Source: a bacterium (lineage in GTDB: Bacteria; Armatimonadota; UBA5829). Taken from it: a stretch of DNA of 64,000 nt. Every line of letters starts with the position of its first letter. Within the stretch, counting starts at the first letter, position 1. Where the stretch lies: assembly GCA_021372295.1 (NCBI GenBank), contig JAJFUS010000006.1, positions 62,001 through 126,000 of the forward strand, in the 5' to 3' direction. The notes beneath the pieces were generated by a model. The model ran no database searches, was not told the DNA's origin, and worked only from the letters and a program-made list of their open reading frames with translations. A program made the position numbers and the translations under genes. Positions 19,662 to 47,391 of the stretch are shown here, one piece after another.

Positions 19662-21401
19662 CTATTCTCTGTACCGGTTCGTAATTGGCAGGCGTCTGTC
19701 TCGGCCGAAAGCCTTTGGAGTGATCTTCACGCCCGGCGCGGCCTGGCGGCGTTTGTATTCATTGCGGTCGATCATCTTGACCACGCGGCGGACGGTCTCT
19801 TCGTCGAACCCCAACGCCACGATCTCGCGGATGCTACGGTCTTCCTGCACGTAGGCCTCGATTATCGGGTCGAGGATTTCGTACGGCGGCAGGGTGTCCT
19901 GGTCGGTCTGATCGGGCTTGAGCTCGGCTGACGGAGGACGTGTGATGATCGTTTCGGGGATTACAGGCGAGAGAGAGTTGCGATATTTGGCGAGCTTGTA
20001 GACAATAGTCTTGGGTACGTCCTTGATGACCGCGAACCCGCCCGCCATATCACCGTAGAGAGTGGAATAGCCGCACGCCATCTCGCTCTTGTTGCCCGTC
20101 GTGAGCACGAGCAGGCCGAATTTGTTCGATAGAGCCATTAGCAAATTGCCTCTGATTCTAGCCTGCAGGTTCTCCTCCGTGGTTCCCGACTCAGTGCCCT
20201 GGAAAATGTCTGCCAGAGAGCGATTGTACGAGCCGATAATGTCTGCAATCGGAACCCAGTCGTATCGAATTTCGAGGTTTTTGGATATGGTTTCGGCGTC
20301 TGATTGCGTTTCGCTCGACGAATACATCGACGGCATTATGAGCGCTCTCACGCGATCCTTACCCAGAGCATCGACCGCCACGCATGCTGTGATAGCCGAG
20401 TCGATGCCGCCGCTCATCCCGAGGATCACTTCCTTGAACCCGTTTTTGTTCACGTAATCCCGCGTGCCCAGCACCAGAGCCTTGTAGACCTCCTCAATGT
20501 CGTAGGGCTGGTTTGAAGATTCCGACAGTTGGCCATTTCGCTCAACGCTCTGCAGCGGTTCGAGCACAATCTCCGGCACGTCAATTTCGCTCGATCCTTT
20601 GAGCCTGGCTTTGCGGCGTCTGGGGTCGACCAAGCGTTGATGCTCCACCAGAGACAAATCCAGATCGACTATCGCGAGTTGCTCCTCGAATGCTTTGCAT
20701 CTGAACACGACATCTCCCGTCGGTCCGACAACCAGCGAATGACCGTCGAAAACCAGCTCGTCCTGCCCGCCGACCGCATTCAGATATACGAATGCGCAGG
20801 TGTTGTCGGCGGCGCGCGTGCCGAGCATTCGCTCGCGATATTTCCACTTGCCGTGGTGGAACGGCGAGGAATTTATGTCCACGATAAGCTGCGCTCCGCC
20901 CACCAGCGTCTCTATTGTGTGAGGGCCGCCCGCGTACCATGCGTCTTCGCATACCTCGACTCCGAACGTCACCTGTCCCAGCGTATATACTCCGGCTTTT
21001 GTGCCGGATTGAAAGTATCGGTCTTCGTCGAAGACGCCGTAGTTTGGCAAAAAGAACTTGTGCTGAACCCCGACAATCTCGCCGTTATGGATTATCGCAG
21101 CAGCATTATATATGTCTTTTGCGACGTCCACGAACCCGACAATCGCCGTAATGCCATTCGTTTCGGGGACTATGCGTTTTATGGCAGCGATGTTGTCGTC
21201 CACGAAACCCTGTTTCAGGAGCAGGTCTTCGGGCGGGTATCCCGTGACCGCCAGTTCGGGAAAGACTACCATATCCGCGCCGCGGTCTTTTGCCTGATTG
21301 ATGTTGTCGATGATCTTGCGCGTGTTTTCGTCGATATCGCCTACGGTCATATTCAACTGCGCCAGCGCCAGGCGCAGGCTGTGTGACAATCTATTTTTCA
21401 C
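19662..21401 (-). CDS. nadE: Glutamine-dependent NAD+ synthetase
   Basis: A 579-residue two-domain enzyme that turns deamido-NAD into NAD+ with ATP and glutamine. The N-terminal nitrilase-type glutaminase shows its triad in FPELAVTGYPPEDLL (Glu), HKFFLPNYGVFDE (Lys) and VCEDAW (Cys). The C-terminal synthetase has the P-loop-like GMSGGIDSA and later TGNKSEMACGYSTLYGD. I chose GTG 21401: AGGAG lies 7 nt upstream, and the longer frame only translates a heptad-repeat leader. Together with nadA and nadC further right, the window covers most of de novo NAD synthesis except nadB and nadD. Confidence 0.95.
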   Translation of the reverse strand: MKNRLSHSLRLALAQLNMTVGDIDENTRKIIDNINQAKDRGADMVVFPELAVTGYPPEDLLLKQGFVDDNIAAIKRIVPETNGITAIVGFVDVAKDIYNAAAIIHNGEIVGVQHKFFLPNYGVFDEDRYFQSGTKAGVYTLGQVTFGVEVCEDAWYAGGPHTIETLVGGAQLIVDINSSPFHHGKWKYRERMLGTRAADNTCAFVYLNAVGGQDELVFDGHSLVVGPTGDVVFRCKAFEEQLAIVDLDLSLVEHQRLVDPRRRKARLKGSSEIDVPEIVLEPLQSVERNGQLSESSNQPYDIEEVYKALVLGTRDYVNKNGFKEVILGMSGGIDSAITACVAVDALGKDRVRALIMPSMYSSSETQSDAETISKNLEIRYDWVPIADIIGSYNRSLADIFQGTESGTTEENLQARIRGNLLMALSNKFGLLVLTTGNKSEMACGYSTLYGDMAGGFAVIKDVPKTIVYKLAKYRNSLSPVIPETIITRPPSAELKPDQTDQDTLPPYEILDPIIEAYVQEDRSIREIVALGFDEETVRRVVKMIDRNEYKRRQAAPGVKITPKAFGRDRRLPITNRYRE

Positions 21402-21426
21402 TGTGATTCTCCTAAAGAAAACATCA

Positions 21427-21454
21427 GAGAGCGGAGAGTTGAAAGCCAAGAGCC
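21427..21454 (-). repeat. 7-bp periodic pyrimidine-rich ladder upstream of nadE
   Basis: Read on the nadE strand, four consecutive 7-mers (GGCTCTT, GGCTTTC, AACTCTC, CGCTCTC) precede the ribosome site by about 18 nt. The same arrangement recurs before birA and apgM. Confidence 0.7.
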
Positions 21455-21616
21455 ATCACCGCCGCACCGATACGTGATCGTTCGAGGGCTGAATTCCGAT
21501 TATGAGTTCTTTGACTTGAGCCGGATTGCACAAATTTATAAAGTTTCATCGCTGTTCGTCCGATAGATTACCTAGGGAAACAAGCCCGAATCTCGAAGTA
21601 AGGATGGTGTAGCAAA

Positions 21617-29379: not shown

Positions 29380-30465
29380 ATGAATAACCCAAGCATACAA
29401 CATAATCAACTCAGGATGCTTTTCTGGGAGACGACGGCCGCTTGCAATCTAAAATGCATTCACTGTCGCGCCATGGCCACTGAAAATCGGGATGCGGAAG
29501 AACTATCGCCGGAGCAGAGCATCGATCTTTTGCGCTCGATTGCGTCGTTCGCGCGGCCAGTGGTGGTATTGAGTGGTGGCGAGCCGCTGGTTCGACCTGA
29601 CATATATGACATCGCATCTTTCGGCACTCAACTCGGGCTGAAAATGGTGCTGGCAACCAATGGAACCACGCTCGACACAGCATCGGCGCATAGACTGAAA
29701 GACGCTGGCATTCAAAGGGTGAGCGTGAGCATAGATGGATCGGATTCCGCCGGTCACGATGCGTTCAGAGGCGTCCCCGGCGCGTTCGATTCGGCCCTGA
29801 GCGGTATCGAAAGCCTAAAGGGCGTCGGAATGCCGTTTCAGATCAACACGTCCGTTACACGCGCAAACCTCGGCCGGCTGCCTCAGATACTGGAAATGAC
29901 GAAGTCGCTGGGCGCTTGCGCACTGCATCTGTTTTTGCTCGTGCCGACCGGGTGCGGCAAGCAAATCGCCGAAGACGAGATGATCGAACCAATAGACTAC
30001 GAACGAGTGCTCAACTGGCTTTACGACTCTTCCAGAACTGCGTCAATCGACCTAAAGGCGACCTGCGCTCCGCACTATTTCAGGATTGTGCGGCAGCAAG
30101 CATCAGCAGAAAGCAGAGAGCAGAAAGCAGAGATTACGATGCACCCACTGCATGCCGAGACCAAAGGGTGTCTGGCCGGCAGCGCGGTCTGTTTTGTCTC
30201 GCACAAGGGCGACGTATATCCGTGCGGCTATCTGCCCGTCAGCGCGGGGAATGTGCTCCATACGCCTCTCCAGCGTATATGGGAAGAGTCCGAACTGTTC
30301 AAGCAATTGCGAGATCCATCACTGCTCACAGGTAAGTGCGGCGGATGCCAATTCATACGGGTGTGCGGCGGGTGCAGAGCCAGGGCATATGCCGAGACGG
30401 GAGATTATCTTTCGCAGGAGCCTTACTGCGCATACGAACCACGCAAAGCGCATGTGCAAATCTAG
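29380..30465 (+). CDS. Radical SAM/SPASM protein, AhbD/NirJ2-like
   Basis: A 361-residue enzyme with the radical SAM cluster motif C22-x3-C26-x2-C29 (CNLKCIHC). LSGGEPLVRPDIYDIA, a VSIDGSDSAGHDAFRGVPGAF segment and LHLFLLVPTGCGKQ are typical of the AhbD/NirJ family of alternative haem and haem d1 synthesis. The C-terminal SPASM part has the cysteines of CGGCQFIRVCGGCRARA and a last Cys near 352 for extra Fe-S clusters. No other haem genes lie nearby, so peptide or other tetrapyrrole modification remains possible. The sequence at 30107-30134 is a 7-bp repeat that inserts a polar SAESREQKAE stretch. The 3' end overlaps convergent ribF by 4 nt. Confidence 0.85.
   Translation: MNNPSIQHNQLRMLFWETTAACNLKCIHCRAMATENRDAEELSPEQSIDLLRSIASFARPVVVLSGGEPLVRPDIYDIASFGTQLGLKMVLATNGTTLDTASAHRLKDAGIQRVSVSIDGSDSAGHDAFRGVPGAFDSALSGIESLKGVGMPFQINTSVTRANLGRLPQILEMTKSLGACALHLFLLVPTGCGKQIAEDEMIEPIDYERVLNWLYDSSRTASIDLKATCAPHYFRIVRQQASAESREQKAEITMHPLHAETKGCLAGSAVCFVSHKGDVYPCGYLPVSAGNVLHTPLQRIWEESELFKQLRDPSLLTGKCGGCQFIRVCGGCRARAYAETGDYLSQEPYCAYEPRKAHVQI
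30107..30134 (+). repeat. 7-bp periodic repeat inside the radical SAM gene
   Basis: Four 7-mers (CAGAAAG, CAGAGAG, CAGAAAG, CAGAGAT) in tandem add a charged loop between the radical SAM and SPASM parts. The composition resembles the ladders before nadE, birA and apgM. Confidence 0.7.
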
Positions 30466-43450: not shown

Positions 43451-44356
43451 ATGAGCATCAGTGAAATAACAGAGAAAATACAGGCGCTGAAGGCCGAGCG
43501 AAATGCAGTGATACTGGCGCACAATTATCAGCTCGGTGAAGTGCAGGACATAGCAGATTTCGCGGGCGATTCGCTGGAATTATCGCGCAAGGCCGCCGAA
43601 ACCGACGCAGCGGTAATCGTCTTTTGTGGCGTGCATTTTATGGCTGAAACGGCGAAAATTCTTTCGCCCGAAAAGACCGTTCTCATTCCCGACCCGCATG
43701 CGGGCTGCCCGATGGCCGATATGATTAATGCCGAGCAGCTCAGGGAATTCAAAAGTCAGCACCCCGGACTGCCCGTTGTGGCTTATGTCAACACCAGCGC
43801 TGAAGTCAAGGCCGAAAGCGATATCTGCTGCACGTCGGCGAACGCGGTGAGGATCGTCGAGTCGCTGGACGCCGATACAATATTGTTCGTGCCGGATAAG
43901 TCGCTGGGGTCGTACGTCGCGTCGAAGACCAACAAAAAAGTGATAACCTACTGCGGGTTCTGCCCCACTCACCATCGCATTCTGTCGCAGGATGTGGTTC
44001 GGGCGAAACGCGCGCACCCTGAGGCCATCGTGATCGCGCATCCCGAATGCACGCCGGATGTCGTGGCGCTGGCTGATGTGGTCGAGAGCACATCGGGGAT
44101 GATCCGGTTCGTCAAATCAAGCGACGCGCGGGAGTTCATAGTCTGCACGGAGCGCGGCATCCTGCACAGGCTCAAACTTGACAGCCCGGATAAACAGTTC
44201 TACAATCCCAGCCCGCTCAATATCTGCCCGAACATGAAGAAGATCACGCTGGAAAAGGTGCTCTGGAGCCTCCAGGATATGCAATATGAGATCACGCTGC
44301 CGCAGGATATGATCGAGAAAGCGCGCGCAGCAATCGAAGGGATGATAGCCGTATGA
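43451..44356 (+). CDS. nadA: Quinolinate synthase
   Basis: A 301-residue Fe-S enzyme that condenses iminoaspartate with dihydroxyacetone phosphate to quinolinate. AVILAHNYQLGEVQDIAD opens the first domain. The three cluster cysteines are in AESDICCTSANA, HPECTPDVV and LNICPNMKKITLEK, in the order expected for the three-domain NadA. Also present are VFCGVHFMAETAKIL and IPDPHAGCPMADM. Length matches the short type common in bacteria and archaea. The stop overlaps nadC by 4 nt. The partner nadB is not in the window. Confidence 0.96.
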   Translation: MSISEITEKIQALKAERNAVILAHNYQLGEVQDIADFAGDSLELSRKAAETDAAVIVFCGVHFMAETAKILSPEKTVLIPDPHAGCPMADMINAEQLREFKSQHPGLPVVAYVNTSAEVKAESDICCTSANAVRIVESLDADTILFVPDKSLGSYVASKTNKKVITYCGFCPTHHRILSQDVVRAKRAHPEAIVIAHPECTPDVVALADVVESTSGMIRFVKSSDAREFIVCTERGILHRLKLDSPDKQFYNPSPLNICPNMKKITLEKVLWSLQDMQYEITLPQDMIEKARAAIEGMIAV

Positions 44357-45204
44357 TGGGACTTGATGCGATGTATATTGAATCGGTTGTCAAAGCCGCG
44401 CTTCTTGAGGACATCGGCAGCGGCGACATTACCACGCTGCTCACCGTTCCATGCGATGCGACGGCACATGCGACCATCACTGCAAAAGAGTCGGGTGTAC
44501 TGGCCGGTCAGAAACTGACTGGGGCAGTATTCCAGCAATTTTCGGGCGCGGTGTACGAACCCGCCATTCCCGATGGCTCTCGGGTCGAGCCAGGAGATTT
44601 GATCGGAAGCGTGTCAGGGGGCGCTCGTTCGATACTCACAGGCGAGAGGACGGCGTTGAACTTTTTGCAGCAAATGTCTGGAGTCGCAACGCTTACGGCG
44701 AAGTATGTCGATCAGGTGAAGCATACCAAGGCCAGGATCGTCGATACGCGCAAGACCACTCCGGGCCTGCGCAGGCTGGAGAAGTACGCGGTGTGCGTCG
44801 GTGGCGGGTATAACCATCGGTTCGGACTCGATGATGGCATCCTCATTAAGGACAATCATATTGCCGCATCCGGCGGGATTACCGCTGCGATCAAGGCTGC
44901 GAAGGATCGAGCGCCGCATACTCTTAAGATAGAGGTCGAAGTCACGAATATCGAGCAGCTCGACGAAGCCATTCGCGCCGGAGCCGACATAGTAATGCTC
45001 GACAATATGACGTTGGACGAAATGCGCCGGGCTGTTATCAAAGCTGAAGGACGTGTGCCGCTGGAGGCGTCGGGCGGAGTGAACCTCGATACGGTGAGGC
45101 AGATAGCCGAGACCGGCGTGGATATTATATCGGTAGGGGCGCTCACGCACTCGGCTCCCGCGCTGGACATCAGCCTGAATATCGGGGCGTCAGTTGACGG
45201 TTAA
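44353..45204 (+). CDS. nadC: Nicotinate-nucleotide pyrophosphorylase (quinolinate phosphoribosyltransferase)
   Basis: A 283-residue cytosolic enzyme that makes nicotinate mononucleotide, CO2 and pyrophosphate from quinolinate and PRPP. The family hallmarks are LLEDIGSGDITT, ARIVDTRKTTPGLRRLEKYAV, GGYNHRFGLDDGILIKDNHI and LEASGGVNLDTVRQIAETGVD. The gene overlaps nadA by 4 nt and is clearly co-translated. A 7-bp periodic stretch (GACGGTT, AACGGTC, GCCGGTT at 45196-45216) runs across its stop codon. Confidence 0.96.
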   Translation: MMGLDAMYIESVVKAALLEDIGSGDITTLLTVPCDATAHATITAKESGVLAGQKLTGAVFQQFSGAVYEPAIPDGSRVEPGDLIGSVSGGARSILTGERTALNFLQQMSGVATLTAKYVDQVKHTKARIVDTRKTTPGLRRLEKYAVCVGGGYNHRFGLDDGILIKDNHIAASGGITAAIKAAKDRAPHTLKIEVEVTNIEQLDEAIRAGADIVMLDNMTLDEMRRAVIKAEGRVPLEASGGVNLDTVRQIAETGVDIISVGALTHSAPALDISLNIGASVDG

Positions 45205-45216
45205 CGGTCGCCGGTT
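45196..45216 (+). repeat. Three-unit 7-bp repeat over the nadC stop
   Basis: GACGGTT, AACGGTC and GCCGGTT are consecutive 7-mers sharing the core CGGT. They differ in sequence from the CTC-type ladders but have the same period. Confidence 0.5.
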
Positions 45217-45270
45217 GGGGGACTGCGGCCTCTATGGGACAAATCAACTTAAAATACACTGAGCGCCGGT

Positions 45271-45305
45271 GGTTCTGGGCTATTCGCTCTCCACTCTCGG
45301 CTCTC
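45271..45305 (+). repeat. 7-bp periodic pyrimidine-rich ladder upstream of birA
   Basis: Five consecutive 7-mers (GGTTCTG, GGCTATT, CGCTCTC, CACTCTC, GGCTCTC) end about 11 nt before the AAGGAG ribosome site of birA. Confidence 0.7.
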
Positions 45306-45324
45306 ATCTGTTTTCAAGGAGCAA

Positions 45325-46071
45325 ATGATCGTGATTCCCACCCAAATCCACCGCTACGGCACGGTAAAGTCCACCAATGACATCGCAATCGAGATGCTCA
45401 AGCATGGCGAGCCTGAGGGGACGGTGGTCACTGCTCTCGCGCAGAGCAAGGGGCGAGGCAGACGCGGAAGGTCGTGGGCGAGCGAGCCGGGGCAAAATGC
45501 TATTGTCAGCATCGTCTTGACGCCGCACAAGCAGCCGAATCAGTTGCACGAACTGTCTTTTGTGGCCGGGCTTGGGGTGGCCGAATATCTCGCGAACGAT
45601 CACGCGGTGGAAGTCTCGCTGAAGTGGCCTAACGATGTAATGGTCGGCGACAAAAAGATTGTTGGAATACTCGTCGAGACGGCCAAGGTTTCGGGCGAAT
45701 GGAGTGCGGTCGCAGGGATCGGGTTGAACGTCAATCAGTCCAGATTCGATGGCGAACTGCATAATCGCGCCACATCCATCGCTATTGAGACCGGCAGGCA
45801 GGTAGATGTCGACAGCGTATGTGAACGGTTGGCAAAGCGCGTGCTTGAGGTTTACGAGCAATATATAACCGGCGGATTCGAGGATATTCTGGCGCGATGG
45901 ACTAAGTATATGTGGGGCGTCGGCCGAGTTGTGGAAGTCGCAACCGAGGCGCGTTCCATTTTGGGGCACATCGAGGGAGCAGACGACACAGGCGCGCTCA
46001 TAATCAAAGACGCGCGCGGACATCGGCACTGTATACGCGCCGCCGATACAATCAGGGTTCTTTGCGCATAA
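45325..46071 (+). CDS. birA: Biotin-[acetyl-CoA-carboxylase] ligase, no HTH domain
   Basis: A 248-residue enzyme that forms biotinyl-AMP and attaches biotin to carrier lysines. The nucleotide loop GRGRRGRSWASEPG, the catalytic KWPNDVMVGDKKIVGILVE and the GIGLNVN segment are all present, followed by a small C-terminal SH3-like domain. The DNA-binding N-terminus of E. coli BirA is missing, so it is a monofunctional (class I) ligase and not a biotin repressor. ATG 45325 lies close behind AAGGAG; GTG 45331 is an alternative with better spacing. A heptad ladder precedes it. Confidence 0.94.
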   Translation: MIVIPTQIHRYGTVKSTNDIAIEMLKHGEPEGTVVTALAQSKGRGRRGRSWASEPGQNAIVSIVLTPHKQPNQLHELSFVAGLGVAEYLANDHAVEVSLKWPNDVMVGDKKIVGILVETAKVSGEWSAVAGIGLNVNQSRFDGELHNRATSIAIETGRQVDVDSVCERLAKRVLEVYEQYITGGFEDILARWTKYMWGVGRVVEVATEARSILGHIEGADDTGALIIKDARGHRHCIRAADTIRVLCA

Positions 46072-46097
46072 ACAGTAATGCAGCGGTGATGTGTCCG

Positions 46098-46132
46098 GGC
46101 TCTTGGCTCATCACTCTCCGCTCGTAGCTATT
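46098..46132 (+). repeat. 7-bp periodic pyrimidine-rich ladder upstream of apgM
   Basis: GGCTCTT, GGCTCAT, CACTCTC, CGCTCGT and AGCTATT run in series and end 7 nt before the AAGGAGG ribosome site. Confidence 0.7.
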
Positions 46133-46149
46133 ATTTGAAGGAGGATTTC

Positions 46150-47391
46150 ATGACTACACCAAAAGCAGTGCTTTTGATCGCCGATGGCCTGGGGGACAGG
46201 CCCATCAAGGAACTGGGTAATAAAACCCCGCTGGAAGCGGCCGAGAAGCCGAATCTGAACAGGGTCGCTTTGGAAGGCGAATGCGGCCTGATGGACCCGA
46301 TTGCGGTCGGGATTCGCGCGGGCAGCGACACTTCTCACCTCGCGATACTTGGCTACGACCCGTACAAGTATTACACCGGCAGAGGCCCGTTCGAGGCTGC
46401 CGGAATCGGTATGGACGTAAAGAAGGGCGATATCGCATTCCGATGCAACTTCTCCACCGTCGATGACAATATGGTCATTACTGACCGCCGCGCGGGTCGA
46501 ATCACCAGTGGCACCGATCAACTTGCCGCTGCGATCAATGGTATGAAGTTGAGCAACGGCATTGAGGTGATTTTCAAGGAATCGGTCGCCCACCGCGGCG
46601 CTCTAATACTCCGCGCACCCGACCTAAGCGCCGATATCACTGACACCGATCCGCATCATGAAGGCACCGCCGTTATGACCAGCAAGGCGTGCGACCCAAA
46701 TAACGCCTCCGCCGCGAAGACTGCGCAGGCCGTTAACGAGTTCGTGCGGAAGTCTTATGAAGTGCTCAAGGATCACCCTGTCAACAAAGAGCGGATCGCG
46801 CAGGGGCTTAACCCAGCCAATATTATTCTGCCCAGAGGCGGCGGAATCGGACCTCACATGAATAGTTTCGAGTGCGAAACCGGCCTGAAAGCGGCATGCG
46901 TGGCCGAAACCGGGCTCATTAACGGCGTCGCGAGATACGTCGGAATGGACATCACCGAGGTCCCCGGCGCAACCGGCGGGCTGGACTCAAACGTGATGAA
47001 CATCGGCAAGGCGATTGTCGAGCAGCTTGCATCTCACGATTTCGTGCTGTGCAACGTCAAAGGCGCCGACCTAGGCGGTCACGACGGCAACCCGCAGGCC
47101 AAAATCGACACCATTAAGAAACTGGACGAAATGGTGGGCTATCTAGTCGAGAACATGCCCAAAGGCACTTATCTCGTGATTACCGCCGATCACTCCACGC
47201 CGTGCGCCATCAAGGATCACTCGGGCGACCCGGTCGCGATTGTGTTCTGGGGCGAAGGCGTGCGCACCGACAAGTGCCAGCAGTTCGACGAGCGTTCGGT
47301 GACATCAGGCGGGCTTGGCCGAATTCGCGGCATCGACGTCACAAAAATAATCACCCAGCTCATGAACGTCCAGGAGAAGTTTGGAGCGTAG
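46150..47391 (+). CDS. apgM: 2,3-bisphosphoglycerate-independent phosphoglycerate mutase, archaeal type
   Basis: A 413-residue member of the alkaline-phosphatase superfamily that interconverts 3- and 2-phosphoglycerate. [24 protein letters not shown] with the metal Asp at the start, [14 protein letters not shown] with the nucleophile region, [11 protein letters not shown] and [10 protein letters not shown] form the ApgM pattern. This pattern is distinct from the larger GpmI of most bacteria. ATG 46150 has GGAGG 5 nt upstream. It completes lower glycolysis with gapA and pgk in this window. The type is common in archaea and scattered in bacteria. A dispersed repeat copy begins 6 nt after the stop. 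Confidence 0.95.

Follow-up and report, generated by a model that had tools for sequence, protein, structure and literature searches.

Three or four distant groups are known to carry heptameric repeats at the borders of genes; every group has its own heptamer, and no function is agreed on. The STRR heptanucleotide repeats of heterocystous cyanobacteria, to which the present case is likened by description only, are degenerate intergenic heptamers of several classes. In Xanthomonas and Nostoc, Rehm et al. (2015, PMC4692102) describe heptamers (GGGAATC, GGGGAYT) whose G-rich strand is antisense in the 50 bp preceding an ORF and sense in the 50 bp that follow a stop codon. In Beggiatoaceae, TAACTGA direct repeats (169 sets in one genome) are absent from relatives with shorter spacers, and MacGregor (2015, PMC4679880) proposes a translational role. 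Published precedents thus exist both for the polarity seen here (Xanthomonas, Nostoc) and for a location at starts (Beggiatoaceae). A first-pass annotation of the DNA studied here had known of no such leader-specific arrangement, a view overtaken by these two reports, the former for starts and stops and the latter for starts. Our literature search found nothing on ladders of this kind in Armatimonadota.

The window analyzed here, a 64,000-nt stretch of an Armatimonadota genome, carries pyrimidine ladders of 7-nt units that are likewise tandem and intergenic. Their consensus, GCTCTCN, and the many other heptamers found alongside it differ from GGGAATC, GGGGAYT and TAACTGA, and by inspection their G strand (GAGAGCN) has no G runs. 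Like the ladders, the Xanthomonas and Nostoc repeats have 7-nt units, are intergenic, avoid genes and keep the same polarity, and inverted repeats are noted among them; unlike the ladders, they are perfect repeats of a single consensus that forms G-quadruplexes and belong to other phyla, and the part of PMC4692102 available reports no conserved 5' half, fixed Shine-Dalgarno (SD) spacing or arm co-variation. The Beggiatoaceae repeats resemble the ladders in lying mostly in sense, just 5' of start codons, before genes without a functional theme. They differ in being one exact heptamer, with an SD kept in about 10% of leaders and almost no predicted structure according to PMC4679880, whereas the leaders studied here retain the SD and their array forms one arm of a palindrome. 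In P6b of the Nostoc trnL intron, complementary 7-nt repeats form a stem-loop, as here; repeat classes are exchangeable with similar structure and length shifts by repeat units, although that case (PMC4476775) is confined to one locus inside a group I intron, whereas the ladders are spread along gene borders across the genome. To these precedents the ladders add a new phylum, a conserved 5' half and a retained SD in a multi-copy element, many coexisting heptamers and evidence of fit between the arms.

The first-pass annotation had reported 7-bp pyrimidine ladders before the ribosome sites of birA, apgM and nadE, and all three were confirmed in the sequence. The birA copy (45258..45318, + strand; 61.3 bits with model R1, described below, with a single-copy fold also computed) consists of a 5' arm, ACTGAGCGCCGGTGGTTCTGG, at 45258-45278 (+) and the ladder GCTATTC GCTCTCC ACTCTCG GCTCTCA TCTGTTT at 45279-45313 (+), followed by the SD AAGGAG (45316..45321, +) and by birA (45325..46071, +), which encodes biotin protein ligase domains (Pfam BPL_LplA_LipB, 1.9e-18, and BPL_C). 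The apgM copy (46082..46136, +; 42.1 bits) opens with the 5' arm AGCGGTGATG..., and AGCGG and TGATG are able to pair with CCGCT and CATCA of the ladder GCTCTTG GCTCATC ACTCTCC GCTCGTA GCTATTA (46099-46133, +). Its SD, AAGGAGG, lies at 46138..46144 (+), and the gene for cofactor-independent phosphoglycerate mutase (46150..47391, +; Pfam PhosphMutase and Metalloenzyme, and orthologs) probably starts at 46150, judging from the SD and the orthologs. On the minus strand, the nadE copy (21417..21467, 34.1 bits) has a partly deleted 5' half and carries the ladder GCTCTTG GCTTTCA ACTCTCC GCTCTCT (21453-21427, -), with the SD AGGAG at 21409..21413 (-); nadE itself (19662..21401, -) encodes NAD synthase with an amidohydrolase domain (Pfam NAD_synthase, 6.9e-77, and CN_hydrolase; orthologs), and we infer GTG as its start codon. 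The ladder-to-SD gap, previously given as 7-20 nt, amounts in the phase given here to 2 nt at birA, where one unit fewer had been counted, 4 nt at apgM and 13 nt at nadE.

In the window, CTCNNNNCTCNNNNCTC with at most one mismatch gave 26 matches versus 14.3 (sd 4.3) in shuffles, none of 100 reaching 26. Across the whole genome, a four-unit pattern with up to three mismatches gave 84 matches, part of them overlapping in 7-nt steps, versus 2 for the reversed pattern. The only other period-7 stretch of the window, at 30102-30133, is probably coding, since it lies within a called gene and scores only 19.1 bits. The genes nadA, nadC, birA and apgM form one string (43451-47391) with ladders only before birA and apgM. 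Relatives of ApgM were Armatimonadota and Abditibacteriota MAGs, which suggests on its own that the window is from Armatimonadota, and no birA relatives were found in viral contigs.

Alignment of 30 pattern matches revealed a longer common sequence in the same orientation: the ladder is part of a dispersed element of about 60 nt that has a conserved 5' half and ends just 5' of the SD. The ladders as first described were real; this 5' half, visible once copies are aligned, had been missed. Among 21 copies the majority consensus reads ACTGAGCGCTGATGAGTCTGGGCTCTTAGCTCTCCACTCTC-n-GCTCTCAGCTATTTT and leads into the SD and start codon. In register it forms eight heptads, the first three diverged, and the ladder units are strongly conserved. 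A sequence-only model of the element (R1) gave 103 matches at E ≤ 1 in the 2.65-Mb genome, of which 14 with E > 0.005 were dropped before counting, leaving 89 of at least 17.7 bits. The earlier suggestion of one shared element in the three leaders is supported. Both anchors were located in 65 of 143 copies, with a spacing that is a multiple of 7 in 53 of the 65 and exactly 28 in 46; a few spacings off the 7-series (17, 24, 31) are anchor shifts, as judged by eye. That spacing changes mostly in steps of 7 lends some support to the idea, also raised in the first-pass annotation, of slippage-prone leaders.

Copies were then placed relative to gene borders called on 528 kb with a simple home-made gene finder, some of whose starts are surely wrong. 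Fifty-eight of the 89 copies lie in sense and end at most 30 nt, mostly 9-14 nt, before a start codon. A further 11 are in antisense, the 3' end meeting a stop codon (-16 to +2) that in several cases falls within the element's own end, AATAG. Another 2 are antisense but farther off, 7 lie elsewhere or at a contig end, and 11 are inside called genes, mostly as weak matches, two of which probably reflect a wrongly called start. Outside called genes, the pre-start and stop-codon classes account for 58 and 11 of 78 copies, against 9.6% and 4.6% expected from random insertion with random orientation in the same spacers. The genome-wide scan proposed with the original observation was therefore strongly positive, with a peak just 5' of ribosome sites, a strand bias and relatives compared; most copies do precede starts, but the arrangement is not leader-only because the second set abuts stop codons in antisense.

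No shared function was found downstream among 30 of the 58 pre-start genes scanned (ncbifam), which include genes for MTA phosphorylase, HisG, CarB, serine hydroxymethyltransferase, GlnS and ribose-phosphate diphosphokinase, as well as ribosomal protein L9, RecA, GreA, UvrA, ClpB, a NuoF-like protein and RNase PH. The element was rejected as an operon-internal feature, the upstream gene being on the same strand for 45 of 58 pre-start copies and for 321 of 421 genes overall, with no excess. A known riboswitch or structured RNA family was likewise rejected, as 12 element loci searched with Rfam models gave no match at E ≤ 1. A hexamer that agrees with a -10 motif at 5 or 6 positions lies about 20 nt upstream of 8 of 35 copies versus 1 of 35 in a control stretch, a weak signal, and transcription may start near the beginning of some elements.

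Matches to the core pattern, 36-72 down to 17 in number, occur in G000, the genome of the window, and in each of G001-G005, which represent four congeners and a sister genus. The pattern gave no match in nine other genomes of the family searched and only stray matches (3, 1 and 3) in three more distant ones among the 61 genomes searched. Model R1 drew the same boundary, with 31, 78, 72, 125 and 96 matches in G001-G005 and 0, 1, 0 and 0 in G006-G009 of the same family. The reversed control pattern gave 17 matches in G045, from the same phylum and another family, so another ladder-like repeat of different sequence probably exists there.

Between orthologous leaders the element turns over. The apgM slot in G003 and G004 holds a clearer palindrome, its 5' arm carrying purine heptads and its 3' arm pyrimidine ones. 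In several other genomes, G001, G005 and G006 among them, the birA stop codon directly abuts the apgM SD. Among G000-G005, the nadE leader carries the element only in G000. One pair of filled and empty sites (L167 of G003 versus L093 of the window's genome) shows CATAG on both flanks, a possible target duplication. At the other filled and empty ortholog pairs, the element is placed directly upstream of the native SD, and by eye no clear target duplication was found. About 100 nt upstream of nadE, a conserved block, GTGGCAC..TACACCATCC.. and then TATCGGCGTAATT (L132-L138), is common to G001-G005, G007 and G011, and the window's genome seems to have a diverged version; the block is possibly a conserved nadE leader.

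Some orthologous leaders that lack the element carry other ladders, of CATCACC, CCTGTTR and AAAGTC types and ACTATCAA (period 8). A sequence-blind autocorrelation scan (score 9) of 780 contiguous kb of the congener G003, with 666 called genes, found, counting intergenic and genic segments in that order, 48 and 9 at period 7, 17 and 6 at period 8, and 34 and 11 at period 14; intergenic segments at periods 4, 5, 6, 9, 10, 11, 12, 13 and 15 numbered 0-4. The same scan gave 1 and 2 segments in 400 kb of G006, from another genus of the family. The G003 set comprises 65 period-7/8 arrays of many consensus sequences. In 37 of these, only the 3' end of the G-poor strand lies at most 40 nt from a CDS border, and in 3 only its 5' end does; the 49 arrays of other consensus show the same bias (29 versus 3). 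The polarity of the G-rich strand reported for Xanthomonas and Nostoc is therefore found in G003 (37 versus 3) as well as in G000 (58 + 11 of 78), although polarity alone cannot tell the acting strand, because the reverse complement of a palindrome has identical form. Usually a G003 array is complementary to a ladder in its own spacer. Exchanging the loop-side sequence for one from a different spacer weakened the pairing: among 5000 swaps, none equaled the native pairing for the 60 arrays taken together or for those near starts, and 5 did for the arrays of other consensus. Period-8 arrays of ATCAAACC and AGTCAAAA types occur in G003 C13 (for example at 175800, 258599 and 342697); their polarity and palindromic arms match those of the heptads.

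The gene slots are in part shared as well. In the G003 stretch, a period-7 or -8 array lies upstream of 7 of 16 reciprocal orthologs of the G000 ladder genes versus 7 of 78 others (p = 0.0019), a test on few genes in which the G000 loci had been chosen around ladders. With spacers of at least 40 nt the counts are 7 of 13 versus 5 of 53 (p = 0.001), and with only arrays lacking the GCTCTC core, 5 of 11 versus 5 of 53 (p = 0.0097). Palindromes of unrelated sequence, built of heptads or in some cases octads, occupy the spaces between genes, and the element belongs among them.

Pairing of the two arms was assessed in several ways. RNAalifold detected no consensus structure at all in 100 aligned copies (matches at E up to 1e-6, from 76 loci), and the folds of single copies frequently failed to beat shuffles (10 copies, z between -2.0 and +1.4). 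Registers differ slightly between subfamilies, GAGCGG pairing off with CCGCTC and GCTGA with TCAGC, and within G000 a G in column 11 co-occurs with a C in column 47 (p = 0.0014). In a register-free arm-swap test on the 65 of 100 copies that are nearly full-length, with kinship among copies left in, each 5' half was folded with its own or another copy's 3' half. Native halves folded better in G000 (n = 38, 0 of 5000 swaps as good) and in G004 (n = 19, 6 of 5000), and the test was null in G003 (n = 7). Mirror-image controls were null in G000, where the sense strand also outscored the opposite strand; one mirror control scored in G004 as well (z -2.8). Arm complementarity thus exceeds that of swapped controls in G000 and G004, and suggests at the sequence level that the two arms co-vary as a hairpin.

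The ladder contains CUCUCC, an anti-SD sequence. Thermodynamic predictions on short windows, with copies taken within anchor and score limits (31, then 28, 17 and 6), gave the SD a probability of 0.395 of being unpaired with the whole element, and deleting or shuffling the 5' arm lowered it to 0.266 (n = 31, p = 6e-4); the corresponding values are 0.73 versus 0.06 for apgM and 0.66 versus 0.58 for birA. A native arm was predicted to open the SD better than a borrowed one in G000 (p = 3e-4, n = 28) and G003 (p = 0.047, n = 6) and no better in G004 (p = 0.29). The SD was predicted to be more open with the native arm than with no arm in all three genomes, and the 5' arm therefore behaves, in these models, as a guard that holds the ladder off the SD. 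The hairpin would possibly affect the ease of ribosome landing.

The reading we favor, with a probability of roughly 0.55, is that the ladders are the 3' arm of palindromic repeats of about 60 nt, with this anatomy and an RNA hairpin as the functional or tolerated form. A palindrome family would have multiplied in one Armatimonadota genus and its sister genus, each arm tending to consist of degenerate 7-nt units. Across the wider heptad set, the C-poor 5' arm would begin at a stop codon, and the G-poor 3' arm would end at the SD or, if read on the opposite strand, at a stop codon. Once transcribed, the pyrimidine ladder (CUCUCC) could mask the purine-rich SD that lies just downstream by pairing with it; pairing of the upstream arm with the ladder would instead leave the SD open, making the leader element self-neutralizing and possibly two-state. 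A one-unit slip would keep the arms complementary, given the period of 7 that they share. That the element performs true regulation we consider doubtful. More speculative again, and in our view unlikely, is a structure-first class of leaders in which sequence is free and geometry is kept, the 3' ladder serving as anti-SD and the 5' arm as anti-anti-SD. If it is real, period 7 lets the arms re-register by slippage without loss of complementarity, and a slot could therefore change its heptamer while the two-state SD switch survives. Many heptamers with the same polarity, partly the same gene slots and complementary arms within one genus point to geometry rather than sequence as what is kept, and would imply a specific effect open to experiment, namely that the SD is opened or closed.

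The principal competitor, which we rate as possible though clearly below an even chance, is a selfish or neutral repeat, either a miniature mobile or a slippage-made palindrome, tolerated only beside coding borders and of no benefit to the cell. High turnover between congeners, downstream genes without shared function, the CATAG flanks of the one filled and empty pair, length changes in 7-nt steps and restriction to one clade would all fit such a repeat. Its fixed SD distance and orientation, far beyond random insertion, fit less well; a selfish element could still yield these, but not the apparent co-variation of the arms or the occupation of the same gene slots by arrays of different sequence in another species. 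REP elements, with their RAYT transposases, are also dispersed intergenic palindromes, and RAYT was rejected as the copying engine. The RAYT-type Y1 transposase (PF01797) has no match in G000, whereas it is present in G001-G005 and G010 and absent from the other six of the 13 genomes; no ladders were found in the 7 RAYT loci examined, which carry ordinary REPs of their own.

Ribosomal protein S1 binds pyrimidine-rich tracts upstream of the SD, and the ladder is such a tract in such a position, with strongly conserved units. An S1-type enhancer, or an RNA-binding protein making one contact every 7 nt as proposed in the first-pass annotation, is nevertheless very improbable: unrelated heptamer arrays occupy the same slots, something no sequence-specific reader would tolerate; antisense copies follow stop codons; and the 5' arm partly sequesters the ladder. 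The one-contact-per-7-nt proposal found no support in the 30 downstream genes without shared function or in the apparent co-variation of the arms as a hairpin. An S1-type role has also been proposed for the heptamer leaders of Beggiatoaceae in PMC4679880. Similarly improbable is a transcription terminator, attenuator or Rho loading site at gene borders. The hairpin followed by TATTTT recalls a terminator, and the G-poor, C-rich strand met on entering a CDS from either side has what we take to be a Rho-like look. However, a run of at least five T is present in only 5 of 35 copies, a scan gave no terminator-like site at the birA, apgM and nadE leaders, and the element precedes essential genes within gene strings. 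An intrinsic terminator, defined as a stem followed by at least 5 T in 8, was rejected on these leaders and copies.

Besides the palindromic repeats favored above, the relatives carry further palindromes of the REP kind. Y1 (RAYT-like) genes at L246 in G004 and L248 in G003 are flanked by genome-specific REP palindromes (GCTTCGGGGCATACGCCCGCGAAG; GGTCGGGGGCAAGAATACCCCCGACC), and REPs resembling these sit upstream of many ladder elements.
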